Source: Thermoflexus sp.
GTDB lineage: Bacteria; Chloroflexota; Anaerolineae; Aggregatilineales; Aggregatilineaceae
Length of the DNA stretch: 64,000 nucleotides
Direction of reading: 5' to 3'
NCBI GenBank assembly: GCA_020724465.1
Contig: DYGX01000007.1
Span: 62,001 to 126,000 of the forward strand
The position numbers and the translations under genes are program-made. The notes beneath the pieces are model-generated. The model saw only the letters and a program-made list of their open reading frames with translations. It made no database searches and was not told the origin of the DNA. Below are positions 4,905 through 41,889 of this stretch, one piece after another. The stretch's first letter is position 1. Each line of letters opens with the position of its first letter.

Positions 4905-4918
4905 TAAGGAGGGGCAAG

Positions 4919-6325: not shown

Positions 6326-6352
6326 GCGAACCGGCTCCATCCGGCTGTCTCC

Positions 6353-6389
6353 CCGCGGCGGGCCGGGCTGGCTCGCCGCGGTTTGTATT
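6353..6389 (+). terminator. Intrinsic terminator after arsM
   Basis: CCGCGGCG (6353-6360) pairs with CGCCGCGG (6374-6381) around a 13-base loop and is followed directly by TTTGTATT. It lies 28 bases past the arsM stop. Confidence 0.7.
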
Positions 6390-6525
6390 CACCGGGCGCC
6401 AGAATGCACGCGCTCCCGCCACGAGACGGCATAGCCAAGCGGCGGTATACTTGGCGAGACCCGCCCGTCGGCGCGCCGGGGTGAGGGTCCGGGGCTGAAC
6501 GGCGCGCACCCCAAAAATCAAGCCC

Positions 6526-6933: not shown

Positions 6934-6953
6934 ACAGGCGCGTCAGCCGGGCG

Positions 6954-7334: not shown

Positions 7335-7487
7335 CGGGTCCTCCCTCTCCCCCTGCGCGGCCTTGATGCCCGCTCCTTGCCTTCAGTATACGGTGAAAAC
7401 AACCGTCACCGAAAGCGCCCGCAGGCAAACGCGCTGCCAGAACGCGATGGGGATCGCGCGCAGCCCGGTGTGCAGCGCCGCATGGAC

Positions 7488-8432
7488 TCAGGCCAGCAGC
7501 GCCTCTTCGCGCTCGCGGAAATAGCGCGCGGTCTGCATCACCATCTCGTCCAGCGCCGCCTTGTCCGGCTTGCCGTACATCGCCGGGTACGGATTGCCGC
7601 CCGGCCCAAGCGGCTCTGGCGTCACATAGCAGCCGGGACGGTTGAAACCGATCACGTACAGCGCCATGATGATCGTGTCGAGGTCCATCGACCCCAACCC
7701 CAGCGCCCGCCGGTTGCTGTCGGCCATGTGCAAATTGACGAGCCGCTCGCCGGCTTCCAGAATCGCCATGCCGATATGCTCTTCTTCCACCTGCATGTGA
7801 TAGACATCGCCGTTGATATGCTGGATGCCGGGGTGGTCGATCGCCTCGATCCAGCGTTTGGCGTCGGCGACGGTGTGCAGCAGGCTGACCTCGGCGGAGC
7901 GGATCGGCTCGACCGCGCCGCGCACGCCGTGCTCGGTGAACAGGTCGGCCACCAGGCGAATCGTCTCGACGCTGCGCTCGAACTCGGTATCGTCGTAGGG
8001 GGTGGGACGGCCCACCGCGCCCGGAATCACGAGCAGGTAGCTGCCCCCGACGGCGGCGGTAAACGGGATTTCGCGCTTGAGGTAGTCGAGCGCGGCCTGG
8101 CGATGAACGGCGCGGTTGCTGGCCAGCTCGCTGTCGGGCGAGTACATGCCGCACACGCCCGCAACCGCGACGCCATGATCGCCCAGGATCCGCAGCGTTT
8201 CTTCGACGCGGTAGCCCAGATCCGGGCCGTAGTGGTTGCCGTGCAGCTCGATATAGCGGATCCCGGCCCGCTCTAGCCGCGCCGCCGAGTCTGCCAGGGA
8301 CTCCATCCCAAAGCCCCAGTTGCTCCACGAGAGATTGAGGCGTTGGGCCAGCCGCTCGGGTGACTTGCGCTTCAAGTCTTCGAAAGCAGCGCGAATCTGA
8401 TCGTTCTTCAGCTCAAAATTCTGTTTCTTCAC
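7488..8432 (-). CDS. Sugar phosphate isomerase/epimerase, AP endonuclease 2-like TIM barrel
   Basis: A 314-residue TIM-barrel protein of the xylose isomerase-like (IolE/Hyi/DTE) superfamily. Metal and substrate residues are visible: a His in ELHGNHYG, Glu in VEPIRSAEV, Asp/His in NGDVYHM, His in VNLHMADSNR and Glu in TPEPLGPGG. Such proteins interconvert keto-sugars or inositol derivatives; the substrate is not readable. The reading frame runs far upstream without family similarity. A GTG at 8432 has GGAG 9 bases before it, while an ATG at 8447 has no Shine-Dalgarno, so 8432 is preferred. A second member of the superfamily occurs at 59096. Confidence 0.82.
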   Translation of the reverse strand: MKKQNFELKNDQIRAAFEDLKRKSPERLAQRLNLSWSNWGFGMESLADSAARLERAGIRYIELHGNHYGPDLGYRVEETLRILGDHGVAVAGVCGMYSPDSELASNRAVHRQAALDYLKREIPFTAAVGGSYLLVIPGAVGRPTPYDDTEFERSVETIRLVADLFTEHGVRGAVEPIRSAEVSLLHTVADAKRWIEAIDHPGIQHINGDVYHMQVEEEHIGMAILEAGERLVNLHMADSNRRALGLGSMDLDTIIMALYVIGFNRPGCYVTPEPLGPGGNPYPAMYGKPDKAALDEMVMQTARYFREREEALLA

Positions 8433-8681
8433 GGCTTCAAGCTCCATTCGGTGCGCGCCGGCACACGGCGGATCGAGCACAGGCGCGGGCGGCGCAGACA
8501 CGCACGGCGAGCCGGGCGGCTCGCACGCCCGCGATTGCTCGCATTGTATGCCGACCCTTCGCGGCAAGTCAACCACAGCCCCCGGCACCGCTGCCGCGCG
8601 CCGCGCCTGCTGTGAAAAGCGTCCATCCCCACGCATTGATTGAAGTAAGACCGTCCAACCATCAGCGCACAAAGGAGCGAC

Positions 8682-10115
8682 ATGATGCTGGCGAAACTGG
8701 TCCGTCTGAGCCTGTTCAGTCTGCTGGCCGCGGCTGCGATTGGAGCCGTCCCACCGGGGCTGGGCGCCGTTGCCCAGGGTGATTTTCCTCTGGAGCTGTG
8801 CCGCGAGGCTGGCTTTTCTACCGAAGAAGACTTCATGATGCGCGAGGGCGAGCCATATGACGGCGACCCCTATATCTCCGACGGAGATGTGCTCAGCCCA
8901 GACGGGCAGGTCTGCGCCCGCAACCGCGATCTGTTGCAGCGGTTCGACGTGCGCGACGATCTGGGCCTGGACGCGCTCGACATTCTGAATGTGGACGCGC
9001 GCCTGGTCGCGTTCTCGACCGAGCTGGACAGCCCGCACGGGACGTTCACGGCGGGCGATCTGCTGATCACCAACGGCGCGGTGATCCCCAACGCCGCGCT
9101 GCTGTACCGGTTCGAGATTCCGCTCGATCTGGGACTGGACGGCGTGCATATCGTCGGCCCGCTCGAAAGCATCCGGCGCTTCGCGGATGCGGCCGGCAGC
9201 ATGGCCCCCGACGAGTGGCTGGGCGGCCGCCTGCAAGATATCCTGCACGAGCTTCAGATCGACATCTGGTTCTCGGTTGAGGGGACGTGGTGGCGGGTCG
9301 AGCGCGGGCGGCCCATCCTGGATGGCGACGTGCTGTCGGCGCGGGACGGAATTCAGGTTTTGTGGCAGGAAGTGCTGCTCGATCCACCGATCCCCGCCGG
9401 GCTGGTGGATCGCGGTGTGGACTTCGGGCTGGATGCGCTGACCGGCCCCCGCGAGCCGGAGCGCGTGGCCCTGCGCTTCTCGACCGAAATCCTCTACCGG
9501 GGCGAGACAAGCTTCACCGACGGTGACGTGCTGGCCGTCGGCGGCAGCGTCGTGCGCCCCAATGAGGACCTGATCAAAGCCTTCCAGCCGGCAGCGGACT
9601 TTCTGGGCCTGGATGCGCTGTCCCTGGCGGTCGAGCCGCCGGTCCATGTCTGCTGCATTGAGTTCGAGGATCAGGTGTCTGGCACAGAGTATCACGTCGG
9701 CGACACGTTCACTGATGCGGGGGTGCTGATCACGGTCGAACCGTTTACCTGGAGCAACGGCACCTCGACCAGCAGCGGCGTAGCTGTGATCGGCACAGGC
9801 GGGCTGGCAGGCGGCTCCGGCAACGAGGCGAACACCAACAACGTCAACCTCTCGTTCGCGCTGCCCGGCACGCCGGCCGGCCTGACCATGCGCTTCGGCG
9901 AATACGGCGGCAACCTCAACATCCGCATCAACGGCGACTTCCGTAACTTCGACGACTTTGCTGACATCGACGGGACGACGATCGGGGGTGTGCAGGTCGC
10001 GGTCGCCACGCTCTCGCCCGAGCGCGGCGTGCTGGTGCTGGACGGCCCGATCAGCGATTTCGCGGTCGGCGGGCAGGAACTGTGGATCGACGAGATCTGC
10101 CTGAGCGGCGAGTAG
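8682..10115 (+). CDS. Secreted protein with three internal repeats, function unknown
   Basis: A 477-residue exported protein with a signal peptide (LVRLSLFSLLAAAAIGAV then GAVAQG). I do not recognise it. The first 330 residues contain at least three copies of a unit of the form GDVL(S/A)-x-x-G-x-V-x-x-N-x-D-L-(L/I)-x-x-F, then (L)GLDALxxL. Examples are GDVLSPDGQV, GDLLITNGAV and GDVLAVGGSV, each followed by DLGLDALD, DLGLDGVH or FLGLDALS. This looks like a beta-propeller or beta-sandwich repeat. The last 150 residues, starting VCCIEFEDQ, form a separate Gly/Asn/Thr-rich domain resembling extracellular lectin-like beta sandwiches and ending in ICLSGE. AAAGGAG lies before ATG 8682. The gene stands alone and is convergent with the ABC operon. 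Confidence 0.7.
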   Translation: MMLAKLVRLSLFSLLAAAAIGAVPPGLGAVAQGDFPLELCREAGFSTEEDFMMREGEPYDGDPYISDGDVLSPDGQVCARNRDLLQRFDVRDDLGLDALDILNVDARLVAFSTELDSPHGTFTAGDLLITNGAVIPNAALLYRFEIPLDLGLDGVHIVGPLESIRRFADAAGSMAPDEWLGGRLQDILHELQIDIWFSVEGTWWRVERGRPILDGDVLSARDGIQVLWQEVLLDPPIPAGLVDRGVDFGLDALTGPREPERVALRFSTEILYRGETSFTDGDVLAVGGSVVRPNEDLIKAFQPAADFLGLDALSLAVEPPVHVCCIEFEDQVSGTEYHVGDTFTDAGVLITVEPFTWSNGTSTSSGVAVIGTGGLAGGSGNEANTNNVNLSFALPGTPAGLTMRFGEYGGNLNIRINGDFRNFDDFADIDGTTIGGVQVAVATLSPERGVLVLDGPISDFAVGGQELWIDEICLSGE

Positions 10116-29329: not shown

Positions 29330-30490
29330 CTAGCCCTTCACCGCTCCGGCGGTCAGACCTTTGATGAACTGCTTCGACATCAACAGATACAGCAGCAAAA
29401 CCGGCAGCGAGGCCAGCGAGAGCGTGCTGAGGATGGCGTTCCAGTCCGTCTGGTACTGGCCGAACAGCAGCGACACGCCGTAGGTAACGGTCCGAACGTT
29501 CTCCGCCCGCGTCAGAATCAGCGGAAACCACAGATCGTTCCAGATCGGGATCATGTTGAAGACCGTAACGGTCGCCAGCGCCGGGCGCGTGAGGGGCAGC
29601 ATGATGCGCGCGAAGACGCGGAACTCCGATGCGCCGTCCATGCGCGCCGCGTCGATCAGGTCATACGGCACGCCGCGCATGAACGCCGTCAGCACGAAGA
29701 CGGTGATCGGCAGGCCCATCGCCACGTAGATCGGGATGAGCGCCCCCAGGGAGTCGCTCAGGCCGAAGTCCTGCACGATGGTCACGATGTTGATTGTGCC
29801 CAGGCGGATGGGGATCATCAGCCCGGCGATGAAATAGAGGTAGAGCGCGCTGGAGATGCGCCCGCGCCAGTTCGCCAGCGCGTAGGATGCCAGCGAACCG
29901 ATCGCCAGGATCAGGACCAGCGAGGTGATGGTGACGGTCAGGCTGTTGCGGAAGTAAATGTCAAAGTTGCCGTCGATCCACGCGCTTTTGTAGCCTTCGA
30001 ACGAGCGCACCTCGGCCGTGGGCCAGCTAAAGGGCGCGCGGAAGATCTCGCGCTTGTCCTTCAGCGAGTTGACCAGCATCGTCCACAGCGGCACCAGCAC
30101 CACCAGCGACCAGATGATCAGGATGATGTGCGAGGCCAGTTGTCCCAGAAAGGTGTCGAAGCGGTAGCGGTAGATGGTGCGGTCGAGCAGGCCGTGCTCC
30201 CGGCGCAGATGGTGCGGCAGGCGCGGCACAACCGCCAGCCAGTATGCCGCCAGCGCACCGGCCATCGCCACCGCGCCCGCGATCTGGCCGGTTCCGCTCC
30301 TCAGCGCGCCGGCCCCAGCGGACACCACAGCCACACCCAGGCCAACCAGCGCCCCCAGCCACGTCGCGAGATCAAGGTCCGTGCGGGATGACGCGAAGCG
30401 CGGGGTAAGCAGCCCACCCGCTGCCATCCCAAGCACCAGCCAGCCGATCAGATCGGCATGCCCCACCAACCAGGCAAGCAGATCGATCAT
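29330..30490 (-). CDS. Sugar ABC transporter permease, MalG type, with an extra N-terminal membrane domain
   Basis: A 386-residue permease, about 100 residues longer than typical MalG/CUT1 proteins. The last 270 residues are standard: TMLVNSLKDKREIF, six helices and the EAA loop PYDLIDAARMDGASEFRVFARIMLPLTRPAL, ending KQFIKGLTAGAVKG. Residues 1-105 add about three hydrophobic segments (LLAWLVGHADLIGWLVLGMAAGG, WLGALVGLGVAVVSAGAGAL, IAGAVAMAGALAAYWLAVV) not found in ordinary MalG. Its start overlaps the MalF stop by four bases. Role: import of an oligosaccharide or similar solute with the two genes upstream. Confidence 0.88.
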   Translation of the reverse strand: MIDLLAWLVGHADLIGWLVLGMAAGGLLTPRFASSRTDLDLATWLGALVGLGVAVVSAGAGALRSGTGQIAGAVAMAGALAAYWLAVVPRLPHHLRREHGLLDRTIYRYRFDTFLGQLASHIILIIWSLVVLVPLWTMLVNSLKDKREIFRAPFSWPTAEVRSFEGYKSAWIDGNFDIYFRNSLTVTITSLVLILAIGSLASYALANWRGRISSALYLYFIAGLMIPIRLGTINIVTIVQDFGLSDSLGALIPIYVAMGLPITVFVLTAFMRGVPYDLIDAARMDGASEFRVFARIMLPLTRPALATVTVFNMIPIWNDLWFPLILTRAENVRTVTYGVSLLFGQYQTDWNAILSTLSLASLPVLLLYLLMSKQFIKGLTAGAVKG

Positions 30491-31461
30491 AGCACCGCCC
30501 CCTCGTCACCCTTGCCGCGCGACCACAGCAGCCACAGGACCACCCCGCTCATCAGAATCACGAACGTCACCGTGGCGACTGCCGCGCCGATCCCCATGTC
30601 CGGCCGGGCGACCGGATGCTCGCCAGCGATAGCCGTCCGGTAGAAGAACGTGCCCAGGATATCGGTCGAATAGTTGGGCGGGCCGTTGGCCCCCATCATC
30701 GCGTACACCACGTCGAACGCGTTGAAGTTGCCGATGAAGGTCAGGATCGCGACGATGCCGATCACCGGACGCAGCAGCGGCAGTTTGATGCGCAGCCAGA
30801 TCTGGAACGCGCTCGCGCCGTCCACCCGCGCCGCCTCGGTCAGCTCGTCGGGGATGTTGATCAGCCCGGCCAGGAACATCATCGTGGGCAGGCCGACCCA
30901 CTGCCACGATGACACCAGCGACACGGCCACCAGCGCCCATTTTTCGTCGCCCAGCCAGCTATGGAACCATTCCGGATGCCCGATTTCTTCGAACAGCGCC
31001 TTGAGCATCCCCCAGCGCGGGTTGAGAATCAAGCGCCAGAGAAAGGCGGTCAGCAGCACGGACATGGTCGCCGGGATGAAGATCACGCTGCGGTAGAGAT
31101 TCCGCCCGAACAGCGTCGTCTGGGCCAGCAACGTGGCGAACAGCAGGCCGAGCGTGTTCTGCACGGCCATGTGGATTCCGAAGAAGATGAACGTGTTGCC
31201 GAGCGCGTTGAAGAAGCGGTCCTTCCACAGCGGGTTCGTCAGCAGTTGCTGGTAGTTCTGCAGCCCGACGAACTCGGTCGGGCGCAGCCCAACCCCGGTG
31301 TAGAAGCTGAGGCGCAGCGAGTTGAGCAGGGGATAGGCCATAAAGATCGTGTAGACGGCCAGGGCAGGGATCAGGAACAGCGCCCAGGCCCGGCGTCTGG
31401 GCGCCTGCCAGTCTCCTGCGAACCCAAGCGCCCGTAAAGAGTGTTCCAGCACAGCCATCAT
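30487..31461 (-). CDS. Sugar ABC transporter permease, MalF type
   Basis: A 324-residue CUT1 permease with six helices and the EAA loop PDELTEAARVDGASAFQIWLRIKLPLLRPV. The N-terminal helix ALFLIPALAVYTIFMAYPLLNSLRLSF is typical. Two adjacent ATGs (31461, 31458) are possible and neither has a clear Shine-Dalgarno, suggesting translation coupled to upstream sequence. It forms the channel with the MalG-like protein. No ATPase gene is in this operon; a shared MsmK/MalK-type ATPase elsewhere is expected. Confidence 0.9.
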   Translation of the reverse strand: MMAVLEHSLRALGFAGDWQAPRRRAWALFLIPALAVYTIFMAYPLLNSLRLSFYTGVGLRPTEFVGLQNYQQLLTNPLWKDRFFNALGNTFIFFGIHMAVQNTLGLLFATLLAQTTLFGRNLYRSVIFIPATMSVLLTAFLWRLILNPRWGMLKALFEEIGHPEWFHSWLGDEKWALVAVSLVSSWQWVGLPTMMFLAGLINIPDELTEAARVDGASAFQIWLRIKLPLLRPVIGIVAILTFIGNFNAFDVVYAMMGANGPPNYSTDILGTFFYRTAIAGEHPVARPDMGIGAAVATVTFVILMSGVVLWLLWSRGKGDEGAVL

Positions 31462-31519
31462 AGGTGATTATCCCGCTCTCTGGTGGCGTCCGGGCGGTTG
31501 CACAAGCGAGTAAGAATAA

Positions 31520-31549
31520 CCATCGCCCGACACGGCTGCCGGGCGATGG
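31520..31549 (-). other. Intercistronic stem-loop after the binding-protein gene
   Basis: CCATCGCCCG (31520-31529) pairs perfectly with CGGGCGATGG (31540-31549), a 10-bp stem, and read leftward TTATTCTTACT follows. Lying between binding protein and permease, it probably stabilises the upstream mRNA or terminates partially, giving excess binding protein. Confidence 0.6.
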
Positions 31550-31599
31550 AGATCGACGTTACGAAGCGCCCTTCCTTTGGGATAGCTCAGGGCCGCGCA

Positions 31600-32874
31600 C
31601 TAGCCGGCCGGGCAGTTCTGCGCCGGCTCGAACCACTGCGCCAGACCTGCTTGCAGGTTGTCCGCCGCTTCCTGCGGCGTGATCGTCCCGTTCAGCACGG
31701 CGATGGCGTTGTCCTGCATCAGCGTGTAACCGTCGGGCGAGCCGTCCAGCAGCCCTTCCCATGCCCAACGCACGTCCAGGCCGCGCCCCTCGTTGAGCGC
31801 GATGAAGGCCGCGGCGTGCTCGTTCTCAATCTCCGGCGCCTGCTGGTTTAGCGGGAAGAAGCCCGGCAGCAGATTGGCGAACAGCTCGGCGAACTCGGCA
31901 GTCGTCATCCACTCCAGGAACAGACGCGCTTCCTCGGGGTGCTCGGTCGCCGCGTTCATGCCCATCCCCGCGTCGAGGTGGAAGGTCACGTACTCTTCTT
32001 CCTGGCCCTCGGGCGCGGGCACGGCGAAGACGCTCCACTCAAAGTCCGGCTCTTCAGACTCGAAGAATGGGATATCCCACGAGCCGCCCAGCCACATCCC
32101 GGCCTCGCCCATCAGAAAGATCTGCTGGCTGTCGTAGTAGGTCAGCGCCTGCTGATCGGCCGGGAAGTACGGCGCGAGATCGGCCACGGCCTGGAAGGCT
32201 GCCACGGCGTGCTCGTCGTTGAAGCAACGCTCGCCGTTCAGGTAGGCCATGCGCCCCTCGTAACCGCCGATAAAGGTCGGAGCAATGTTCATGAAGACGA
32301 TCTCGGCGATGGTCCAGGGGTCGCCGCTGGCATTGGCAAACCCGTCATAGCCGTTGTCCTTGAGCGTCTGGGCCGCGGCCAGCAGTTCTTCCCAGGTTTC
32401 GGGGACTTCGATGCCCAGCTCATTGAACAGGTCCACGTTGTAGTAGACGCCATGCGAGACGGCGATGAACGGCACGCCATACTGCACGCCGTCTTCCGTC
32501 CGCCAAACGGAGAGCGCCTGGTCGCTGAAGGCTTCACTCAGACCGGGCAGGTCGCTGATGTCGGCCAGGAAACCCTGGTTATACAACTGGCGCGCCACCG
32601 AGAACGAGCGCAGGTACATCAGGTCCGGCGCGGTCCCGGTTTCGAACTGGCTCTGCAAGGTCGCGTTGTAGTCAGGCGGGTTGGTCGGGTCAAAGGTGAT
32701 GCGGATATGCGGATACTTTTCCTCGAATGCCGCGATGAGAGCTTCCATCTGGGCGACGTCGTCCACGCGCCACGACCCCATCACCAGGTTGACTTCTTCC
32801 TGGGCCGAAAGCGTCGCCGGCGCCATCGCCACGACCAGAGCAGCGAGCAGAATCAAAACAAGCAGTTTCTTCAC
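31600..32874 (-). CDS. Extracellular sugar-binding protein, family 1 (CUT1)
   Basis: A 424-residue binding protein of the MalE/UgpB class. The signal peptide (LLVLILLAALVVAMAPATLSAQ) lacks a lipobox. The mature part starts EEVNLVMGSWRVDDVAQMEALIAAFEE, contains the family hallmark MGEAGMWLGGSWDIPFF, and has a late NILQ-like region with two cysteines (Cys near FNGERCFND and NCPAG at the end). The start is GTG 32874, fixed by GGAGG 5 bases upstream; an in-frame TTG overlaps that site. It is the first gene of the MalEFG-like operon. The ligand is unknown. Confidence 0.9.
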   Translation of the reverse strand: MKKLLVLILLAALVVAMAPATLSAQEEVNLVMGSWRVDDVAQMEALIAAFEEKYPHIRITFDPTNPPDYNATLQSQFETGTAPDLMYLRSFSVARQLYNQGFLADISDLPGLSEAFSDQALSVWRTEDGVQYGVPFIAVSHGVYYNVDLFNELGIEVPETWEELLAAAQTLKDNGYDGFANASGDPWTIAEIVFMNIAPTFIGGYEGRMAYLNGERCFNDEHAVAAFQAVADLAPYFPADQQALTYYDSQQIFLMGEAGMWLGGSWDIPFFESEEPDFEWSVFAVPAPEGQEEEYVTFHLDAGMGMNAATEHPEEARLFLEWMTTAEFAELFANLLPGFFPLNQQAPEIENEHAAAFIALNEGRGLDVRWAWEGLLDGSPDGYTLMQDNAIAVLNGTITPQEAADNLQAGLAQWFEPAQNCPAG

Positions 32875-32978
32875 AGTTGCCTCCAAGGATTTAGCTCTAG
32901 CGCACCCGAAAACACATCTTGAGTTCTCGTGCTTGCCACACGCAATTGAGTATACTTTAGGGACTAAGGTTTGCCCCT

Positions 32979-33209
32979 CTAGGCGAAGTCGATAGTTTCA
33001 CCCCTCTGGCTTTTATCACCCCCCTGTGCTTCATCACCCCCCTGCTCTTCTTGGGAGTAGGCTTTCGGGATGCTTGGGACGGCGGCGATGCGCCAGATGC
33101 CGCCTACCTTGTAGGCGGGCAGGCGACCACGGGCGCACCAGTTGCGTACGGTGCGCTCGGTGACTCCGTAGCGGACGGCCACGTCGCGGGTCGTGCGGTT
33201 CCAGAGCAT
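32979..33209 (-). CDS. Excisionase-like helix-turn-helix DNA-binding protein
   Basis: A 76-residue protein with a MerR/excisionase-type winged helix-turn-helix: TTRDVAVRYGVTERTVRNWCARGRLPAYKVGGIWRI is characteristic (residues about 6-41). Such proteins act as recombination directionality factors or small regulators. The tail (about 50-76) is a Gly/Asp/Gln-rich imperfect repeat, GGDEAQGGDKSQRG. ATG 33209 has an excellent AGAGAGGAGGA; a longer reading frame upstream is rejected. No integrase is found in the window. Confidence 0.75.
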   Translation of the reverse strand: MLWNRTTRDVAVRYGVTERTVRNWCARGRLPAYKVGGIWRIAAVPSIPKAYSQEEQGGDEAQGGDKSQRGETIDFA

Positions 33210-33442
33210 TGTTGTCCTCCTCTCTGGGTGGCTTGGCTTGCTTTTAGTGTACACGGAAAAGACGGAAATTGCTGGTAGGTGGTGCGGGGGCGGGGCTTCA
33301 GTTTTACGGGGCGCGTGACGCGTTCGTCGTAGGGGCCGCAGCGCAGACACGCGAGCAGACGGCGGGTGCGGCCGGGTTCGTGCTGGATGAGTACTGCTGC
33401 GGCGGGCGCGCCGCAGCGGGGGCAGTTGGTTAACGGTCCCAT
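33104..33442 (-). CDS. Small zinc-ribbon ORF, partly overlapping its neighbours
   Basis: A 112-residue frame whose first 45 residues hold CPRCGAPA and CLRCG separated by about 25 residues, a plausible four-cysteine zinc ribbon. The ATG overlaps the last codons of the Y1 transposase. The 3' half becomes low-complexity and overlaps the first 106 bases of the excisionase-like gene, so the real protein may be shorter or the frame may be fortuitous. No Shine-Dalgarno is visible. I regard the zinc ribbon as probably real and the tail as doubtful. Confidence 0.4.
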   Translation of the reverse strand: MGPLTNCPRCGAPAAAVLIQHEPGRTRRLLACLRCGPYDERVTRPVKLKPRPRTTYQQFPSFPCTLKASQATQRGGQQCSGTARPATWPSATESPSAPYATGAPVVACPPTR

Positions 33443-33801
33443 TGTTCGGCTACGTAGCGTCGGGCGGTATCGAGTGAGCCGGAGCCGACGGTTTTAGCGA
33501 AGTAGCGACGGCCCCAAAACGGGCGGCCAGTGCGCCCCAGGTCGTGATTTGCGAGCCTGGCGCTTTCGCTTTTGAAGTCGCGTGCGAAAGCGGCGATGGG
33601 CTGGTCGGGGGGCAGAATCACCAGGATGTGGAGATGGGCTAGGTCGCGACCATGGTTGAAGGCGAGAACGTGGGCGCGATGGGCGCGGGTCTGGTCGTCG
33701 AGGGCGCGCGCGATGGCGGCGCGGACGGCGGGCGTGAGCAGCGGGCGGCGGTACTTGGTGGTCAAGACCAGGTGATAGAAGAGGAAGGTCAGGGCGGGCA
33801 T
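33430..33801 (-). CDS. Y1 (HUH) transposase, IS200/IS605 TnpA family
   Basis: A 123-residue Y1 transposase, near the shortest length of the family. The start LTFLFYHLVLTTKYRRPLLT is typical. The metal-binding HUH motif is His56-Leu-His58 (AHLHILV), and the nucleophile is most likely Tyr116 in ARRYVAEQ. These enzymes cut and join single-stranded DNA at hairpins. No TnpB gene accompanies it, so it is an IS200-type or domesticated (REP-associated, RAYT-like) copy. A long inverted repeat lies about 100 bases upstream (33904-33958). Confidence 0.85.
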   Translation of the reverse strand: MPALTFLFYHLVLTTKYRRPLLTPAVRAAIARALDDQTRAHRAHVLAFNHGRDLAHLHILVILPPDQPIAAFARDFKSESARLANHDLGRTGRPFWGRRYFAKTVGSGSLDTARRYVAEQWDR

Positions 33802-34318
33802 GGGGAGGGTTCCTTTCTCGGCGGGCGCGTCGGGGCGGGGCCACCCCCGCGCGGAAACCGGACGCGCCGGGCGCCCTTGGCGTTAGCCGGGCCAAGCGCA
33901 GCAGTCAAGGGCGCGGAGCGCAGCGGAGCGGCGGAGCGCAGCGAAGCGTACCCTTGACGGCAAGCTGCCCGGCGCATAATGGATAGGGCGGCGCGGCGGT
34001 TTTTTTTTGCTTTGCGGCGGGTTTCCGGCGGTCTGGCGGGGGCAAGGCGGCGGGCGGTCGGCGGCCTGGGGGGCGGTGGCCTGGGTGGTGGGGCGGGCTG
34101 GTCGGGGCCGCGCGGAGCGCGGCAGGGCGCGCCTGCGAGCCGCGAGCGCCTGCGGGTTCTTGACTGTCGCGCGCGCGGTTTTTGAGGCAAGCCCGCAGGC
34201 CGCGACGGGGCGAGCGGCGCGCCCGGCGCTGACGGCGGGCCTGGTTCCGGTGCGGCGGTGGCAGCGAGCGCGGGCGGCGAGGGGTGGGCGGGTGGCAGCC
34301 GCCCGCGCGAGCGGTCGG
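33802..34318. other. 517-base region without a convincing gene
   Basis: All long frames here are Arg/Pro/Ala-rich low-complexity translations on both strands and look like GC-bias artefacts. What is visible: a repeat-rich hairpin (33904-33958), a possible rightward promoter (TTGACG at 33954, CATAAT at 33975, 15-base spacer), and a run of nine T (34000-34008) shortly after it. The promoter followed by a T-run could produce a very short RNA. Confidence 0.5.
33904..33958. repeat. Inverted repeat enclosing iterated GGAGCGCAGC units
   Basis: GTCAAGGG (33904-33911) and CCCTTGAC (33951-33958) are perfect inverted arms. Between them are variants of a short purine-rich unit (GGAGCGCAGC, GGAGCGGC, GGAGCGCAGC, GAAGCG). 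Its position upstream of the Y1 transposase fits a subterminal or REP-like hairpin used by that enzyme, but this is inference. Confidence 0.5.
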
Positions 34319-34603
34319 TCACGGGTCCAGGTTGAGGGCGTTGATGAGTGCGGGGCAGTCGCGGCAGAGTTTTGCGGTTTCCGGTGGAATCCAGCGTGCG
34401 CCGTGCACGAGGATGAAGCGCGGCCCGGCGAGGGTGATGAGGTCCGCGCGTTCCAGGGCGTAGAGGTAGTAGCGGACGGTTCCGATTGCGTAGTCGGTGG
34501 CGATGGCAAGTTCGCCGTGGGTCGGGGTCTGGCCGTCGTTTTCGAGTTTGTAGGCGATGAGCGCGTCGTAAACGCGGCGTGCCCCTTTGCTTAGCTTGGT
34601 CAC
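34319..34603 (-). CDS. LexA-like winged helix-turn-helix protein lacking the peptidase domain
   Basis: A 94-residue protein that aligns by pattern with the LexA DNA-binding domain: KGARRVYDALIAYKLENDGQTPTHGELA, then ATDYAIGTVRYYLYALERADLITL, then a short wing. The C-terminal tail is only about 25 residues with two cysteines (Cys79, Cys82), so the LexA autocleavage domain is absent. Start GTG 34603 has GGAGGGCACCC in front. A GAACNNNNGTTC box lies 21 bases upstream, next to a leftward TAGAAT -10. It may bind SOS-type boxes as a RecA-insensitive repressor. A phage or plasmid immunity or copy-control regulator is the alternative. Confidence 0.65.
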   Translation of the reverse strand: MTKLSKGARRVYDALIAYKLENDGQTPTHGELAIATDYAIGTVRYYLYALERADLITLAGPRFILVHGARWIPPETAKLCRDCPALINALNLDP

Positions 34604-34623
34604 GGGTGCCCTCCAATCAACTA

Positions 34624-34635
34624 GAACGCTTGTTC
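34624..34635. promoter_or_regulatory. LexA/DinR-type box upstream of the LexA-like gene
   Basis: GAACGCTTGTTC is an exact GAACNNNNGTTC box, extended to AGAAC...GTTCT (34623-34636). Read leftward it lies immediately after TAGAAT, a likely -10, in the 39-base gap between the IS110 transposase stop and the LexA-like gene. Confidence 0.6.
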
Positions 34636-34642
34636 TATTCTA

Positions 34643-35821
34643 TCACCCGTCGCGGTAGCCGTCCGGGTCGCGGGCGACACCCCAGAGGATGCGGGCTAGC
34701 TTTCCGACGGCGGCCTGAGTGCGGTATGGCGTCCTGAGGGCCTGATGGTAGCGTTTGACGGGGTTATCGATGGCGTTGGGGCGGATGAGGTTCATCGTCC
34801 ACATTCGCAGCGCCATCATTGCGGGACGATAGCCTCGCTTGACGCGCTCGTGGGTGATGCGGTCGCCAGATTGTCGGGTTTTCGGGTGAGCGCCGACGGC
34901 GGCTTTAAACTGGTCTATCGAGAAATCGAGGACGTGGCCGCGCGTGGCGACGTGGAGCGTGGCGATGGTGACGAGGTTGCCGGGGATGCCGGTTCGTGGT
35001 ACCGCGTAGGGGATGGTCATCCATCGCTGCGTGATGGTCGCGTAGGGTTCTTGCAGGACGGTTTCAGTGATGCGGTTGGCGCTGTCCGTGAGTTGCGCGT
35101 TCAGGTCGTCCAGCAGAGTCACGAGGTCGGCGGCTGCGGCGCGGGTGGTTGGCCGCGCGGGCAGGCCGGGCGGGAGTTGTTCGGCGAGCGCGAGTAAGGC
35201 GGCGTGGGCGCGGTGGTGGCGGAATGCGTCGGGCGGCGCGGCGGCGAGCTGGCGGATTTCGTCGGGGGTGATGGCACCGGCGGCGGCGCATTTTAGCCAG
35301 ACGTCGCGTTTCTGCGCGAGCGCGGGCCAGAGGGAATGCGCGAGTTGGTCGAGCTGGTTGAGCGTGCGGGTGCGCTGCTTGAGGATGCGGTGATGGTTGT
35401 TGAGTAGCGCGCGTAGTCCGCTGACGGCTTCGTCGAGGTCGGTGTCGAGCGGGTAGGCGCCGTGGACGGTGCGGCCGCTGGCAATCCAGGTGGCGGCCAG
35501 CGCGAGGGCCTGGGCGTCCGTGCGGTCGGATTTTCCGGCGCTGATGTGGACGGCGCGGATTTTTCCGGTGGTAGTGGTGGGTATTTGCCAGATTTGAACG
35601 TTCTTCCCGCTCAGTGCGGTTAATAGGGGCGTGAGGTAGTGGGTACCCGTGGGTTCGACGGTCACGATGCAGCCTGCGGGGGTGAGTTCGCGGAGTTGGC
35701 GCCACCAGTCGGGGTCCTTGAGTTGGATGGTGGTGGTCAGCCATTGGTGCGGGGGCGCGGTGGGGTGCGAGCGGGCGATAACGAGTGCATGCTTGCCGAT
35801 GTCAATGCCGAGGTGTATCAT
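34643..35821 (-). CDS. IS110 family transposase (DEDD recombinase)
   Basis: A 392-residue IS110 transposase of normal length. The N-terminal RuvC-like DEDD catalytic residues are Asp7 (GIDIGK), Glu56 (VEPTGT), Asp99 and Asp102 (KSDRTDA). The C-terminal Transposase_20 domain follows a coiled-coil region and contains TGIPGNLVTIATLH and KTRQSGDRITHERVKRGYRPAMMALRM, with the conserved serine in the RQSG segment. IS110 elements use a structured RNA from their non-coding end to choose donor and target DNA. The 285-base stretch before this gene is the expected source. The frame is intact, so the element may be active. Confidence 0.9.
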   Translation of the reverse strand: MIHLGIDIGKHALVIARSHPTAPPHQWLTTTIQLKDPDWWRQLRELTPAGCIVTVEPTGTHYLTPLLTALSGKNVQIWQIPTTTTGKIRAVHISAGKSDRTDAQALALAATWIASGRTVHGAYPLDTDLDEAVSGLRALLNNHHRILKQRTRTLNQLDQLAHSLWPALAQKRDVWLKCAAAGAITPDEIRQLAAAPPDAFRHHRAHAALLALAEQLPPGLPARPTTRAAAADLVTLLDDLNAQLTDSANRITETVLQEPYATITQRWMTIPYAVPRTGIPGNLVTIATLHVATRGHVLDFSIDQFKAAVGAHPKTRQSGDRITHERVKRGYRPAMMALRMWTMNLIRPNAIDNPVKRYHQALRTPYRTQAAVGKLARILWGVARDPDGYRDG

Positions 35822-35990
35822 GAGTTTGTCTCCTGGTTGGGGCGCGGCGCATTATTGCTACGTGGTGGTTCACCCTCTTTAGCGGCGCTCGCGCCCCTGT
35901 TGGTCTTTGATGTGCCTTATACTCAGCGCGTTCGGTGACGCCATACTCTGCTTGGCACTAGGGTTGAGTATACAGCCGGAATAGGTGCAG
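35822..35990 (-). ncRNA. Candidate bridge RNA/left-end region of the IS110 element
   Basis: No gene is seen between the transposase start and the UroD start (285 bases). Next to the transposase an 8-bp stem, GGGGCGCG (35839-35846) with CGCGCCCC (35890-35897), encloses a 43-base loop that contains a smaller GGTG/CACC hairpin near 35864-35874. A leftward TATACT -10 occurs at 35967-35972. In characterised IS110 elements such stem-loops in the 5' non-coding end form the bridge RNA. Extent and strand are inferred. Confidence 0.35.
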
Positions 35991-36106
35991 CAATACTCGC
36001 TGGCAAAACAGCGTCAAATCTTGTATTAGTAAACGCATTTGTTAGGAGTCCCGGCTCGCGTCTCCGACCAAAGCCTGCCCGTGGCGTGCTCAAGGAGCGT
36101 ATTCCA

Positions 36107-37294
36107 ATGAACGGCAAAGAACGGATCGCGGCGGCCATGCGCCATGAGATTCCCGACCGCGTCCCGCTGATGTGCCAGCTTGCCCTCGGCCACTACTTTC
36201 TCAACACCGACCTGCGCCCGCACGAAATCTGGTTCACCAGCGAAGGCTTCGCCGAGGCACTGGTGACGCTACAGCGCCGCTACCACTTCGACGGCATCCT
36301 GATCAACATCCCTGGGCGCGATCCGAACTGGCACGACGCCATCGCCGCCATCGAGGAGTCCGCCGAGGGCGAGATCGTGCGCTGGAAGAATGGCGATCGG
36401 ACGCTCATCCCCTGGGACGACAACGCGCAGCACTACCCGGCGGACCCGGCCCGCGCCCGGCCCCTGTTCGACGAGTTCGACCCAGATCGAGACTTCGACC
36501 GCATCGACGACTGGACGCTCTACACCTGGGGGGTCTACCACACGCCGGTCCTGCCGGGCAAGGCGCCCGGCCTGCTGCGCGAGCCGCCGGATTACTTCTT
36601 CCGCACCATCGATCTGGTCAAGGCGCAGGTGGGCGACACGGTCTCGGTGCACGGCGAAGTGTTCTCCCCCTTCACGCACCTGATGGAGCTGTTCAGTTAC
36701 GAGGACGCGCTGACGCACCTGGCGCTCGACCCGGAAAAGGCCGCGGCGATCCTGGACCGGCTGACAGACGCGAGCATCGCCTGGGGGCTGGCCCAGGCGC
36801 GGCACGGCGTCGATGCGGTGCTGATCTCGTCGGCCTACGCGGGCGGGGGCTTCATCTCGCCGCGCATGTACCGCCGCTTCGTGCTGCCCTACGAGCAGCG
36901 CGTGGTCGAGGCGATCCACGCCGGGGCGCCGGGCGTGCCGGTCTACACCCACACCTGCGGGCACCTCAACGACCGGCTGGAACTGCTGATGGAAACCGGG
37001 ACGGACGGCGTCGACACGCTCGACCCGCCGCCTATCGGCGACACCGAGCTGGCCGACGCCAAGCGGCGTATTGGCGACCGCATGTTCATCAAGGGCAACA
37101 TGAACTCGGTGTATCTGCTGCAGGCGGCCACCGTCAGCGAGGTGCTGGACCACGCCCGCGAGCGCCTGCGCGACGGGATGCCCGGCGGCGGCTACATCCT
37201 CAGCACGGCGTGCTCGGTCTCGCCGCGCGTCGCGCCGGAGAAACTTGAGGCGCTCTACCCGCTGGTCGAGGCCGAGGGGCGCTATGACATCTGA
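36107..37294 (+). CDS. Uroporphyrinogen decarboxylase-family (MtaA/CmuA-like) protein
   Basis: A 395-residue URO-D superfamily protein. The start MNGKERIAAAMRHEIPDRVP and the zinc motif HTCGH (about 287-291) followed by GVDTLDPP and IKGNMNS place it among corrinoid-dependent methyltransferases and related enzymes rather than HemE, because the heme-pathway arginine patch is absent. AAGGAG lies 11 bases before ATG 36107. A corrinoid protein or reactivating partner is not present nearby, so the methyl donor is unknown. It sits next to the IS110 region but has chromosomal codon use. Confidence 0.75.
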   Translation: MNGKERIAAAMRHEIPDRVPLMCQLALGHYFLNTDLRPHEIWFTSEGFAEALVTLQRRYHFDGILINIPGRDPNWHDAIAAIEESAEGEIVRWKNGDRTLIPWDDNAQHYPADPARARPLFDEFDPDRDFDRIDDWTLYTWGVYHTPVLPGKAPGLLREPPDYFFRTIDLVKAQVGDTVSVHGEVFSPFTHLMELFSYEDALTHLALDPEKAAAILDRLTDASIAWGLAQARHGVDAVLISSAYAGGGFISPRMYRRFVLPYEQRVVEAIHAGAPGVPVYTHTCGHLNDRLELLMETGTDGVDTLDPPPIGDTELADAKRRIGDRMFIKGNMNSVYLLQAATVSEVLDHARERLRDGMPGGGYILSTACSVSPRVAPEKLEALYPLVEAEGRYDI

Positions 37295-37408
37295 GCTAAA
37301 AGCGGCGATGAAGCAGCAATAAAGCAGCAGAAAGCAGCGAAAGGCAAAAAAGCACATGCGCTGCTCCGGGCTATGTTCGGCTGGTCTGCCGCTGTTCTTC
37401 GCTTTCGC

Positions 37409-38782
37409 CTATTCCCCCGCGCGGTAGACCGGGTCCGCTGTGCCGAGCCTGTACTCGGTCATCGCGGATTCCTGGCCCAGCACCGCGCGCACAAAGTCCG
37501 GCCACCAGTTGATTTGCTCGCCGTGCGCCTCGTATTGCGCCAGCGCGTTCTCGGATTCGGTTGCCATGCGCTGACCCAACTGCACGGTCTCGTCGCGGCT
37601 GAGCTTGTGCGCGTCAAGCAGCCAGCGCCGCCCGATCTGCGCGTGGAGCACCTCGTCCGCCCAGTCATAATCCTGGAAGGCGGTCGCCAGCGCGTCGCGC
37701 GCGTCCATAGTGACTTCCCACTCGTACTTCTTGCCAGTCTTGGCGGGCATCAGGCTTTGCTCGATGGTGTACAGCACGGCGTGGGCTTCGAGGGGGGACA
37801 TGTGCAGATTCAGGCGCAGCGCAAAACCCGGATGCAGCGGGATTTCGCGCTTCCAATCCACGCCCTTGGTCTCGAAATAGACCGATCCCATCATGGCGTG
37901 GCGCGCCTCGTCCCAAAGCTGGCGACACATATCAACGTAGTAATCCCACGGCATGTCCCGCGCCTCGGCGATCATGCGCGCCATTGCCTCGGGCACGTCC
38001 ATCTCCAGCGTGCGCTTGCACATCAGCGCCAGCGTCTTCTCCTCGACCGGCACGCCCGGCGTGCGCGCCACTTCGTGCGGCGGGAAGACGAAGTTCCACT
38101 GCCCGACAAAGCGATCGTCGCGGCGTGGGAAGAAATCCGGCTGGAACGGCCCGGTGGCGCGCGGCGCGGGCAACGACGCCGGAGCGGGCCGGTCGTTCAT
38201 GATGCCGCCTGCCGCATCGAGATAGGCCCGCAGGTGTGCCGCCCAGGCATCCGCCCGCGCGCGGTCCTCGTCGCTGCGGATCACCGCGTCAAGCGCCGCC
38301 TGCCCCCAGGCCAGCGCGTCTTCTTCTTCGAGGATCGCAAAGCGCAGGGCGCGCCGCGTCGGGTGGTCGATCAGCGGATTGGTCGAAGCCATATGGCTCC
38401 GGTAAGCGTCCAGCAGCGCGGGCTTGAGCACGCCGTACAGCCCGACCAGCTTTTCGAGTGTGTCCTGCGCGCACCACAGCTCCTCGAAGAAGCGGTCGAC
38501 GCGCTCATCGGGGCTGATGTCCATACGCGGCGGCGGGTTGCGCATCTCGCTGATCCGCACGCGAAACAACTTGGCGTGCTCGGCATCCTGATAGAGATGC
38601 AGACTCAGGGCTTCCTTGACTTCCCACTCCGGCGTAGGGTTGAGCCAGTACAGCCCGGTTTCCATCGCGCGCTTCTCGATCCAGGCGTAGCGCAGCATCA
38701 AGGGCACATTCTCGGCCACGCTGTAACCCGGCCGGGCGGCTTCTTCGTAGGTACACAATCCTGCCAGGGGTGGAATTGACAT
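37409..38782 (-). CDS. Ferritin-like di-iron protein, function unknown
   Basis: A 457-residue protein I do not recognise as a named family. Two E-x-x-H motifs, EARH in LWDEARHAMMGS and EVLH in WADEVLHAQIG, together with acidic helices such as EALSLHLYQDAEHAKLF and RFAILEEEDAL, are typical of a ferritin-like four-helix bundle binding two irons. No signal peptide or membrane helix. The ATG 38782 has GGAGGAGG; a 60-codon upstream extension is rejected. A divergent promoter region separates it from the CHRD gene. Possible roles are oxygenase, desaturase-like enzyme or iron handling; none is supported by neighbours. Confidence 0.65.
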   Translation of the reverse strand: MSIPPLAGLCTYEEAARPGYSVAENVPLMLRYAWIEKRAMETGLYWLNPTPEWEVKEALSLHLYQDAEHAKLFRVRISEMRNPPPRMDISPDERVDRFFEELWCAQDTLEKLVGLYGVLKPALLDAYRSHMASTNPLIDHPTRRALRFAILEEEDALAWGQAALDAVIRSDEDRARADAWAAHLRAYLDAAGGIMNDRPAPASLPAPRATGPFQPDFFPRRDDRFVGQWNFVFPPHEVARTPGVPVEEKTLALMCKRTLEMDVPEAMARMIAEARDMPWDYYVDMCRQLWDEARHAMMGSVYFETKGVDWKREIPLHPGFALRLNLHMSPLEAHAVLYTIEQSLMPAKTGKKYEWEVTMDARDALATAFQDYDWADEVLHAQIGRRWLLDAHKLSRDETVQLGQRMATESENALAQYEAHGEQINWWPDFVRAVLGQESAMTEYRLGTADPVYRAGE

Positions 38783-38958
38783 CGCTGAACCTCCTCCGAA
38801 CCAGGCGCGCCTTCCCAGGATTATCAGATTACGGTTACACTTAACTATACTATACCCCGCCGCGCCCCCTGCCGTCCATCCAAACCGGTCGTTTTGATCG
38901 TAGGAGTGGTTATAGAGAGAGCATTTCTGTGGGGAAAGCAGCCTTAAGGAGGAAAACA

Positions 38959-39441
38959 ATGTCGAGAAAGCGGTTGTTCATTGTCCTGGCCGCGCTGGTT
39001 GCCCTTGTCGCGCTGAGCGGATCGGCCCTGGCCGGATCGCCGCGCAACTTCCGCGCGCACCTGTCGCAGGAAGCGCCGGGCGTCGAGACGCTGGCGCAGG
39101 GCCAGGCGATCTTCCAGTTGAGCAAAGACGGCACCGAGATCACCTACAAGCTGATCGTCGCCAACATCGACAACGTGATAGTGGCGCACATCCACCTGGG
39201 CGGCGCGGGAACCAGCGGGCCGCCGATCGTCTTCCTGTTCGGCCCGGTCAGCCCGCCCGTCACACAGAACGGCGTGTTGATCGAAGGGTCGTTCACCGAG
39301 GCGGACCTGATCCCACGGCCCGATCTCGGCTTCAACGGGACCTTCGAGGAACTGCTGGCGCTGCTGCCCACCGGCGAAACCTACGTCAACGTGCACACGA
39401 CCGCCTACCCCGGCGGCGAGATCCGGGGCCAGATCTACTAA
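38959..39441 (+). CDS. Secreted CHRD-domain protein
   Basis: A 160-residue exported protein: a signal peptide (RLFIVLAALVALVALSGSALAG) and a single CHRD domain, read from FRAHLSQEAPGVETLAQGQAIFQLSKDG, VAHIHLGGAGTSGPPIVFLF and the closing VNVHTTAYPGGEIRGQI. CHRD domains were first described in chordin and occur in many bacterial secreted proteins of unknown function. AAGGAGG before ATG 38959 is ideal. It stands alone with a strong terminator. Confidence 0.88.
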   Translation: MSRKRLFIVLAALVALVALSGSALAGSPRNFRAHLSQEAPGVETLAQGQAIFQLSKDGTEITYKLIVANIDNVIVAHIHLGGAGTSGPPIVFLFGPVSPPVTQNGVLIEGSFTEADLIPRPDLGFNGTFEELLALLPTGETYVNVHTTAYPGGEIRGQIY

Positions 39442-39474
39442 GCCGCCCGATCCATACAATCCCTACCCGTAACA

Positions 39475-39502
39475 ACCGGGAGACTGGCGCCAGTCTCCCG
39501 GT
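39475..39502. terminator. Perfect 28-bp palindrome, bidirectional terminator
   Basis: Two 14-base arms starting ACCGGGAGACTGGC pair perfectly with no loop. It is placed 33 bases after the CHRD stop and 5 bases beyond the TolB-like stop, serving both convergent genes. Confidence 0.7.
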
Positions 39503-39507
39503 CCCCC

Positions 39508-40308
39508 TCAGGGGATCCAGATCGGATTCAGGTCGTCTGCTGTGCTGAACGTCACGCGCCGCAGGCCCGTGCCATCAACGTTGACGACATAAATTTGTTG
39601 GTGAAACGCTTCATGGTTGGAGCTAAAGGCGATCCGCTGCCCGTCCGGCGACCACGCGGGAACATACCCAAACGCCTGATCGGTCAGCAAGCGACGCTCT
39701 CCGGTTTCCAGGTCGTAGAGGTGCAGCCGGTTGTAGCCGTCCTGCGCGGACGTAAAGACGAGATACCGCCCGTCAGGTGAGAAATCTGGCGCGTCGTCGC
39801 GAAACCGGTTGAACGTCAGCCGCCGGAGCAAGCCGGTTTCGACGTTGAGCAGAAATAGCTCGCTATCGTTGTAATCGCGCCGCCGGTCCGACGGTTTGCC
39901 GCCAAAGGCCAACCACACGCCATCCGGCGACCAGGAAAGCGTCGGAGTATGCGCCCAAAACTCGCCCAACTCGACGCGCTCCCAGGTGACCATCGAGATC
40001 ATGCTAAGCTGCCAGCGCCGCCCGGTGATTAACCGCCACGACGCCAGCCATTCGCCGTCCGGTGACACGGCGTAGCGAGATGCGTCATAACCATTGTACC
40101 CGCTCAGGACGGTCTCTTCACTGGTCGTCAAGTTGACGACATGCGCCACGCTGTTACGGCTGAATGCCAGCCGTTGCGCAAGCTCCGGCGCCGGTGCCTG
40201 CGCTTGAAGATCGGGGATGCCGCTCGCGAGTGGCAAGGCGCTCGCGAACGCAACGCACGCCAGCACACAAAGCAACGCCCACCGCGCGCGCAAAACGAGC
40301 GGCACCAT
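39508..40308 (-). CDS. Exported TolB-like beta-propeller (PD40) protein
   Basis: A 266-residue exported protein with a signal sequence (ARWALLCVLACVAFASALPLA) and at least four PD40/WD40-like blades, seen as repeats of AVSPDGEWLAS, SWSPDGVWLAF, DFSPDGRYLVF and AWSPDGQRIAFSS. It resembles the TolB propeller and DPP-IV propeller fragments without a peptidase domain. ATG 40308 has AAGGGGG before it and lies 11 bases after the LarA stop, so it is the last gene of the rhamnose operon. Its role there is unclear. Confidence 0.8.
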   Translation of the reverse strand: MVPLVLRARWALLCVLACVAFASALPLASGIPDLQAQAPAPELAQRLAFSRNSVAHVVNLTTSEETVLSGYNGYDASRYAVSPDGEWLASWRLITGRRWQLSMISMVTWERVELGEFWAHTPTLSWSPDGVWLAFGGKPSDRRRDYNDSELFLLNVETGLLRRLTFNRFRDDAPDFSPDGRYLVFTSAQDGYNRLHLYDLETGERRLLTDQAFGYVPAWSPDGQRIAFSSNHEAFHQQIYVVNVDGTGLRRVTFSTADDLNPIWIP

Positions 40309-40319
40309 CGCCAACCCCC

Positions 40320-41588
40320 TTACTCCACATATGGGATCGTCTGCGGGCCTTCCGGCAGCACGCACACGGTCATATCGTCTCCGTACCGTGCGCGCAGTTG
40401 TTGGAGCGTGGCGCCAATATCCCGGCAGGGCGCCAGCAGCGCATCGCGAAGCTGCGCATCGGTCAGGTTGTGGCTGTAGAACAGGATGTCCGCCCGCTGC
40501 GAGACCAGCGCCTGGACCTGCACCTGCCACATATCCTGCGACGCGAAGCCCGGCGCGCGCACCATCGCCAGAATATCATCCGGGCTGCGCGCCCCGGCCA
40601 GCAGGCGCCGATACTCGCCATGATCGGGCAGCCCGTCCCAGCAGTCGGCGGCGATGATGATCGTCCCGCCGGGGCGGACGATCTGCGCCGCCGCACTCAT
40701 GCCCTTGACCGACTGGTAGACGTTCAGGTCAAGCGGGTAGCCTGAATTGCTGGTGATCACCACGTCGAACGGCTCCGGCACCCCCTGCATGGCGTGTTCT
40801 TTGACGTAAGCGCAGCCCTGCGCGTGCGCCGCTTCCAGATCGCCCGCGAAAACGGCCGTGATCTGCTTGTCGCGGTTGAGCGTCACATTGACAAGGAAGG
40901 TCTCCGGAACCAGCCGCGCCGCGTCGCGCACGTCTTCCCACAGCGGGTTGCCGTCGGTGATGCCCCAGCGCGCCCGCGGATCGTCGATGTGCGCGGCGCG
41001 GTGGTTGTGCATGATCGTGTCCAGCCGCGCCAGGCCCGGCATGATCGCCTTGCCCCCGCCGGAGAACCCCGCGAAAAAGTGCGGCTCGATGAAGCCGGTC
41101 AGGATGTGCACGTCACACTCAACGAATTCGCGCAGCAGCCAGATCGCGTTGCCGCTGGACGTCTCGCCCATAAAGATGTGCTGGCCCTCGGCGCGCGCGT
41201 CGTTCTGCACGATGCGAAAGCGCCCCACCACTTCGGCGCCCAACATCTGGCGCAGCTCGACGTCGGTGTTGGGACGGTGCGTGCCTGTCGCGTTGAACAG
41301 CGTGATCTGAGCGTCCGGCACATGCGCGAGCGCACGCAGGATGGCAGGGATGATGATCTCGTTCGGGGTCGGACGGGTGATATCGCTGAAGACGATCCCG
41401 ACGCGATCGCCGGAGCGCACGCGTTCCGCCAGCGGGGCCGAGCCAACCGGCGCGGCCAGCGCCCGGTCGAGCGCCGTCGCCGGGTCGGGCAGCCCTGGCA
41501 CGTAGCGCGGCTCGATCACGGTCACGTTCAGATCGCCGGGCAGCGCGAGGGAAAGCCCGGTCTTGCCGTAGGCCAGCCGGACATTCAT
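40320..41588 (-). CDS. larA: LarA-type nickel-pincer racemase/epimerase
   Basis: A 422-residue LarA-family enzyme. In Lactobacillus plantarum LarA, His108, His174, Lys184 and His200 hold the nickel-pincer cofactor and do catalysis. Here the equivalent residues are His104 (TGTHRP), His170 (EPHFFAGFSGGGK), Lys180 and His196, with a constant offset of four. The DITRPTP motif (69-75) is also present. It interconverts D- and L-lactate or a related 2-hydroxyacid. Being in a rhamnose operon whose pathway ends at lactaldehyde and lactate, lactate is the likely substrate. The cofactor genes larB, larC and larE are not in the window. Confidence 0.85.
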   Translation of the reverse strand: MNVRLAYGKTGLSLALPGDLNVTVIEPRYVPGLPDPATALDRALAAPVGSAPLAERVRSGDRVGIVFSDITRPTPNEIIIPAILRALAHVPDAQITLFNATGTHRPNTDVELRQMLGAEVVGRFRIVQNDARAEGQHIFMGETSSGNAIWLLREFVECDVHILTGFIEPHFFAGFSGGGKAIMPGLARLDTIMHNHRAAHIDDPRARWGITDGNPLWEDVRDAARLVPETFLVNVTLNRDKQITAVFAGDLEAAHAQGCAYVKEHAMQGVPEPFDVVITSNSGYPLDLNVYQSVKGMSAAAQIVRPGGTIIIAADCWDGLPDHGEYRRLLAGARSPDDILAMVRAPGFASQDMWQVQVQALVSQRADILFYSHNLTDAQLRDALLAPCRDIGATLQQLRARYGDDMTVCVLPEGPQTIPYVE

Positions 41589-41598
41589 GTGTCCCGTC

Positions 41599-41889
41599 CT
41601 AGCCGCCGGAAACCGGCGGGATCAGCATCATCTGGCGCACCCCGGCCACCGGCGTATCCAGCCCGCCGGGCAGCAGGGCCAGGTGGCGCCCGTCGAGCAC
41701 AAGCTGCATGTCGCCGCGCAGGGTGAGATCGGCCTCAAGCACGCGCCCGGCCAGCGCCGGATAGGCGTCTGCCAGCGCGCGCAGCACATCGCGGACGGTC
41801 GCCCCGTCCTCGACCGTCACTTGGATCGCCTTCTGGCCCGCCAGCGCGCGAAGCTGCGCCAGCAGGGTGATAGTTTTGGTCTGCGCCAC
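41599..41889 (-). CDS. MoaD/ThiS-like ubiquitin-fold sulfur carrier
   Basis: A 96-residue beta-grasp protein ending in the diagnostic Gly-Gly (PPVSGG), the site that is adenylated and thiocarboxylated in MoaD and ThiS. Internal features are VEDGATVRDVLRALADAYPAL and the LPGGLDTPV loop. Start GTG 41889 with GGGAG upstream, 14 bases after the aldolase stop. Archaeal aldehyde:ferredoxin oxidoreductase loci often carry a MoaD-like gene for the tungstopterin, and the AOR gene is two genes upstream here, so that role is likely. Other roles as a sulfur donor are possible. Confidence 0.75.
   Translation of the reverse strand: MAQTKTITLLAQLRALAGQKAIQVTVEDGATVRDVLRALADAYPALAGRVLEADLTLRGDMQLVLDGRHLALLPGGLDTPVAGVRQMMLIPPVSGG

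Follow-up and report, generated by a model that had tools for sequence, protein, structure and literature searches.

The window, a 64,000-nucleotide stretch of contig DYGX01000007.1 from Thermoflexus sp., carries on its minus strand a gene for an IS110-type recombinase (34643–35821). Upstream of the start codon lies a non-coding left end of 174 nt (35822–35995), and beyond the recombinase follow, on the same strand, genes for a 94-residue winged-helix protein (34319–34603), a 123-residue Y1 (HUH) transposase of the IS200 type (33430–33801) and a 77-residue HTH_17, excisionase-like DNA-binding protein close to the right end (32979–33212). The insertion site is located between a leftward gene (31600–32886), which from the appearance of its sequence looks like an ABC-transporter binding protein, and a rightward URO-D gene starting at 36107. 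The upstream stretch holds no convincing gene as far as this URO-D gene, in agreement with the initial annotation, which had described it as gene-free.

The recombinase reading frame is intact and encodes 392 residues. Asp7, Glu56, Asp99 and Asp102 are invariant in six aligned sequences of the recombinase and its relatives, and Ser318 sits in a QSGD motif within the region aligned to the C-terminal portion of IS621. The four DEDD residues and the C-terminal serine region reported earlier are thus both retained. The match to PF01548 (E=1.3e-10, 41.8 bits against a cutoff of 29) identifies a DEDD RuvC-like N-terminal domain. The match to the C-terminal domain PF02371 is below its cutoff (17.2 versus 21.3 bits), and NF033542, the NCBI model for IS110 RNA-guided transposases, covers residues 4–385 with E=3e-25 but at 89 of the 140 bits of its equivalog cutoff. 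A profile built from five relatives finds IS621 (PDB entry 8wt6, E=2e-15) and ISCro4 (PDB entry 9t56, E=8e-13), and its C-terminal stretch aligns with IS621 including the ESG motif, as expected for a Tnp domain with a conserved serine. The relationship to IS621 is distant and is seen as a profile match.

The ends of the element are defined by an empty site in a congeneric genome (G001, contig C399, locus L013), where the sequence is element-free and continuous across the junction. Window positions 29643–32956 correspond to 1–3315 of this locus with 94.7% identity and positions 35993–41646 to 3311–9000 with 89.8% identity. The insertion is clean, with a net size of 3,041 bp, and occupies about 32955–35995 on the minus strand. 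The 5-mer ATACT (plus strand) occurs at both 32952–32956 and 35993–35997, and each element end is ambiguous within it. Read on the minus strand as AGTAT, these 5 bp are common to both junctions and there is no longer target duplication, as for insertion at a core in the IS110 group; AG, GT, TA and AT are all compatible as the core dinucleotide. The right-end junction (32943–32962, minus strand) reads CCCTAAAGTATACTCAATTG and comprises the element end, the shared core region and the right target. The left end is at about 35995, some 174 nt upstream of the recombinase start, and not at the start itself, the outcome that the initial annotation had named as speaking against its reading. That annotation had assigned the interval 35822–36106 to the bridge-RNA region of an intact IS110 element. 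Because the empty site ends the element near 35995, only 35822–35995 lies inside it, and the remaining 111 bp or so (35996–36106) are chromosomal flank. The intactness of the recombinase stands, but the element is not a minimal IS; its cargo had been overlooked. The element is single-copy in its own 4.4-Mb genome, so that any recent movement is conjectural.

The left end, bounded by the empty-site junction and the recombinase start, contains two predicted loops on the minus strand. The target-binding loop (35912–35958), found by descriptor search and present in the same shape in relatives, consists of GTGCC, a first internal loop, a GCGT-ACGC hairpin, a second internal loop and GGCAC. The two guides sit one per internal loop, with the left target guide AGAGTAT at 35943–35949 and the right target guide TGAGTATA at 35918–35925. 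Across the junction the empty site reads GAGAGTATACTCA. Compared with it, AGAGTAT is the left target and TGAGTATA is the reverse complement of the right target TATACTCA, with 8 of 8 positions matching. The left target guide makes a shorter match of only 6–7 nt to the empty site (GAGAGTAT), and the window's own flank (GCGAGTAT) has one more difference. The donor-binding loop (35839–35897) includes the 8-bp stem noticed initially, which is exact (35839–35846 with 35890–35897, 43 nt between), and an inner hairpin GGTG-AAC-CACC. The left donor guide CTAAAG (35877–35882) is identical to the end of the element's right end (32955–32960), and the right donor guide AGCAATA (35853–35859) is the reverse complement of the first bases of the element, TATTGCT (35989–35995). 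The corresponding donor sequence is CCCTAAAGTATTGCTGC. The guides match in the order left target, right target, element right end and element left end, with 6+8+6+7 nt at the fixed junction, 27 nt in sum. At the level of sequence, this bears out the bridge-RNA region first proposed, including the agreement of a target-binding loop with flanking DNA. Guides divided between a target loop and a donor loop, as in the IS110 group, are present in the window and in its relatives.

In the IS110 group the ends joined in a circle rebuild a promoter, from which the RNA is expressed. Within the left end of the window element a −10-like box, TATACT (35967–35972, minus strand), precedes the target-binding loop by 8 nt and may belong to a promoter; the promoter search found no convincing −35 box across the putative circle junction. 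Outside the loops, GTATACTCAA at 35964–35973 (minus strand) is a 10-nt repeat of the right target (32944–32954). The TATACTCA motif is also found in the left end of a related locus, L014, where it resembles a −10 box. The likeness of GTATACTCAA to the target may be accidental or may enable pairing between the RNA and its own promoter.

Among 20,000 dinucleotide shuffles, 10 attain the summed guide match, and 2 do so with the right order as well. The predicted minimum-energy fold of the left end includes both outer stems. The folding energy of the 171-nt region is ordinary (z −1.22, with 29 of 200 shuffles folding as well), so structure alone is insufficient for assigning a bridge RNA. A search of Rfam 15 gave no match at gathering score, only two sub-threshold matches. 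A junction-free scan of the window's left end, which sought the left target and right donor guides under a loose geometry, does not rise above shuffles (30 of 60, and 152 of 200 in a second run), the mean null score being about 13 of 16. Because this loose geometry is too permissive, the scan was replaced by tests based on the known junction, on swapped guides and on structure. When guide sets are swapped, 4 of 15 foreign sets score as well as the window's own at the window locus. The window alone is good but not overwhelming evidence; it is the family of relatives that makes the case.

Of 154 genomes of the order, 19 have relatives of the recombinase, as do 7 of 396 genomes drawn from the class, the window's own being counted each time. 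Named records carrying related elements are mostly Chloroflexi or Anaerolineales MAGs. Single-protein scans of genome contigs and viral contigs confirmed no relative, and the plasmids and phages searched contained none. The left ends of 20 related loci were compared alongside that of the window, and 16 loci (15 relatives and the window) were taken into the tests. Five loci (L033, L034, L066, L069 and L071) were omitted, as their loops or guides could not be placed well enough. In the swap test over the 16 loci, own guides on own flanks sum to 234, compared with a mean of 168.5 and a maximum of 199 in 100,000 permutations; some of the loops were selected manually, a bias towards the own score. 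In the structure test, 15 of the 16 loci have their left target guide in the left internal loop of a shared stem-loop-stem shape. The test sum is 357, while shuffles give a mean of 51 and a maximum of 137; depending on the locus, shuffled surroundings of the guide produce the shape in 4–53% of trials. The exception is L014, where a tandem copy of the target guide enlarges the inner hairpin. The target-binding loop of this locus, on the reverse strand and 162 nt upstream from the start, carries a tandem duplication of the left target guide with its neighbourhood, reading CCCCAGTATGGCCCATCC followed once more by CCCCAGTATGGCCC; the duplication has the look of a step in the natural change of target guides. 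A MAFFT alignment of nine left ends is poor, with 40% mean column identity. A count of stems was set aside as circular, the stems having been chosen for pairing, and the structure test was used instead.

The guides fix both ends in four further elements, one in genome G015 (locus L015) and those at L056, L057 and L063. In G015 the right target guide, on contig C33, predicts the right target TATAGGG. The first 3,000 bases of contig C37 contain this sequence a single time, after the last cargo gene, with TCACTG, the donor guide, next to it (score 13 of 15). The right end is located at L015:2029, on a contig other than that of the guides. L056, L057 and L063 have one best right end each, scoring 15, 13 and 14 of 15, whereas the best foreign guides reach 11, 11 and 12 on them. 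At the known right end of the window the own guides score 14 and the best foreign set 13. The element sizes are 2,946 bp for L056, 3,432 bp for L057 and 3,057 bp for L063. Joining the L063 flanks at a shared GA restores one open frame through a helix-turn-helix that looks, from its sequence, LuxR-type. The L063 element interrupts a kinase-like gene by sitting in the LuxR-type DNA-binding domain with which that gene ends. The joined flanks of L056 and L057 gave no comparably informative frame. The right end of L059 was not resolved (12 of 15, the same as foreign guides), and those of L016, L058, L061 and L067 were not located, fitting downstream sequence being too little or absent.

All five elements with both ends resolved are about 2.9–3.4 kb long and extend 1.5–2 kb beyond the recombinase. 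The window element has about 1.7 kb beyond the recombinase within its guide-defined ends and is not a minimal one-gene element; with regulator genes and a second transposase on board, it reaches roughly double the usual size. A LexA-like winged-helix gene is found in 4 of the 5 resolved elements and an IS200-type Y1 gene in 2 of 5, the window's included. The winged-helix protein of the window has weak family matches of its own (HTH_20, E=0.011) and is tied to the LexA-like proteins of sister elements by its similarity to those of G015 and L016. The Y1 protein matches PF01797 (E=3e-21) and, above cutoff, NF033573. The HTH_17 protein matches PF12728 (E=5.7e-10) and TIGR01764, and also the PADLOC model mad1 (E=1.1e-8), which represents a general excisionase-like fold for DNA binding. 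The G015 cargo has the same order as that of the window, with a LexA-like winged helix, a Y1 transposase and a small protein that is probably zinc-binding. In both L056 and L057 a winged helix, LexA-like or related, lies near the right end and is encoded on the opposite strand; no winged helix was found in the L063 element. At L016 a LexA-like gene stands directly behind the recombinase. Small LexA-like genes are also frequent outside the elements, with matches in 69 of the 154 genomes, which makes host-gene capture plausible for this cargo. We think a role of the cargo in element regulation more likely than a benefit to the host.

Upstream of the window's Y1 gene, positions 33802–34318 form a 517-bp stretch of 78% G+C with no convincing gene. 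It contains several GCTTCGCTCCGC-like units, together with inverted repeats that are imperfect, GTCAAGGG ... CCCTTGAC. Upstream of its own Y1 gene, at about 1058–1132 of L015, the G015 element shows a comparable layout, TGAAGGG ... CCCTTCA. The arrangement is a possible Y1 substrate.

The chances are close to balanced, tilting slightly against, that the Y1 gene is a separate IS200-type insertion nested by accident and no working part of the element. Three of the five resolved elements have no detected Y1, and Y1 genes of low similarity are common, occurring in 14 of 41 relative genomes searched, with the own genome and G015 counted. Against this, the closest relative of the window's Y1 in the 41 genomes is that of G015, with 52% identity (35% for the next best by E-value), and it stands in the same gene order in an element at another locus. 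Relatedness and gene order together suggest one old association, which does not imply a function. A more far-reaching reading credits the Y1 transposase with moving the whole 3-kb insertion, as an IS200/IS605-type or composite element in which the IS110 gene is only a passenger. An intact-looking Y1 transposase of this family does lie inside the insertion, and IS200-type elements likewise insert without duplication. But unlike in IS200/IS605, this Y1 gene is inside an element both ends of which are matched by IS110 guides, and L056, L057 and L063 have ends of the same kind with no Y1 detected, so we consider this origin highly improbable. Chance stems and guide matches, in a stretch that would merely be promoter and leader of the transposase gene, could account for the near-shuffle folding energy and the non-significant blind scan of the window, but are opposed by four ordered matches at an independently known junction and by the swap, structure and right-end results in other elements, and are scarcely credible.

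We conclude that the left end at 35822–35995 (minus strand) very probably encodes the predicted bridge RNA of an IS110-type element with cargo inside guide-defined ends. The recombinase is intact, the insertion is exact with respect to the empty site, the guide matches are ordered, and relatives have a conserved anatomy with matching guides of their own. In the proposed mechanism the left end would be transcribed into an RNA with two internal loops. In the first, the left and right target guides would pair with opposite strands at the chromosomal insertion site. In the second, the left and right donor guides would pair with the right end and the left end of the element, which would be joined in a putative excised circle. 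An active DEDD/serine recombinase would bind this RNA and, guided by it, carry out recombination between circle and target at a short core within AGTAT, leaving no duplication other than the core.

The IS621 and IS110-group elements (PMC11208160, PMC11208158) show the same main features as the window element, namely a DEDD recombinase with a catalytic serine, a left end that lies upstream of the gene and holds the bridge RNA, guides LTG, RTG, LDG and RDG with the same roles, order and sense, and insertion at a short core with no other duplication. Differences are seen in the core, which is within AGTAT in the window and CT in IS621, and in the space before the target-binding loop. This space is short, about 37 nt of left end, so that an IS621-like 5′ stem-loop may be missing. 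The IS1111 group, which is marked by subterminal inverted repeats, shares the recombinase superfamily and RNA-guided target choice with the window element; its RNA is usually downstream of the gene (PMC11187229, PMC11208160), whereas that of the window is by position upstream, in the left and not the right end. Bridge-RNA IS110 elements are described, in the abstract of PMC11208160, as minimal and typically one-gene, in contrast to the roughly 3.0 kb with cargo in the window. We treat this size and cargo as a variant of the IS110 family, as size describes the family and does not define it. The boundary search in the same source extended 1,000 bp to either side of the gene, so that in the form described it would not reach right ends 1.5–2 kb beyond the gene. 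A literature search over titles and abstract beginnings, with subscription papers and preprints mostly outside its coverage, found no paper reporting regulator or Y1 cargo in IS110 elements. Bridge RNAs as such are established for this family; as far as these searches go, the cargo is new.

It is possible, though we hold it rather doubtful, that one Chloroflexota order harbors a branch of bridge-RNA transposons of about 3 kb with their own regulators, a LexA-like winged helix and an HTH_17 protein of excisionase type, joined in two cases by an HUH Y1 transposase, and that these proteins control excision, circle handling or transfer. The guides alone can locate the far end of cargo-carrying IS110 elements. 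Should the cargo-carrying variety prove real and general, natural bridge recombinases would already be moving loads of several genes and might work with partner proteins; this would bear on the biology of the IS110 family and on its use as a DNA-insertion tool.
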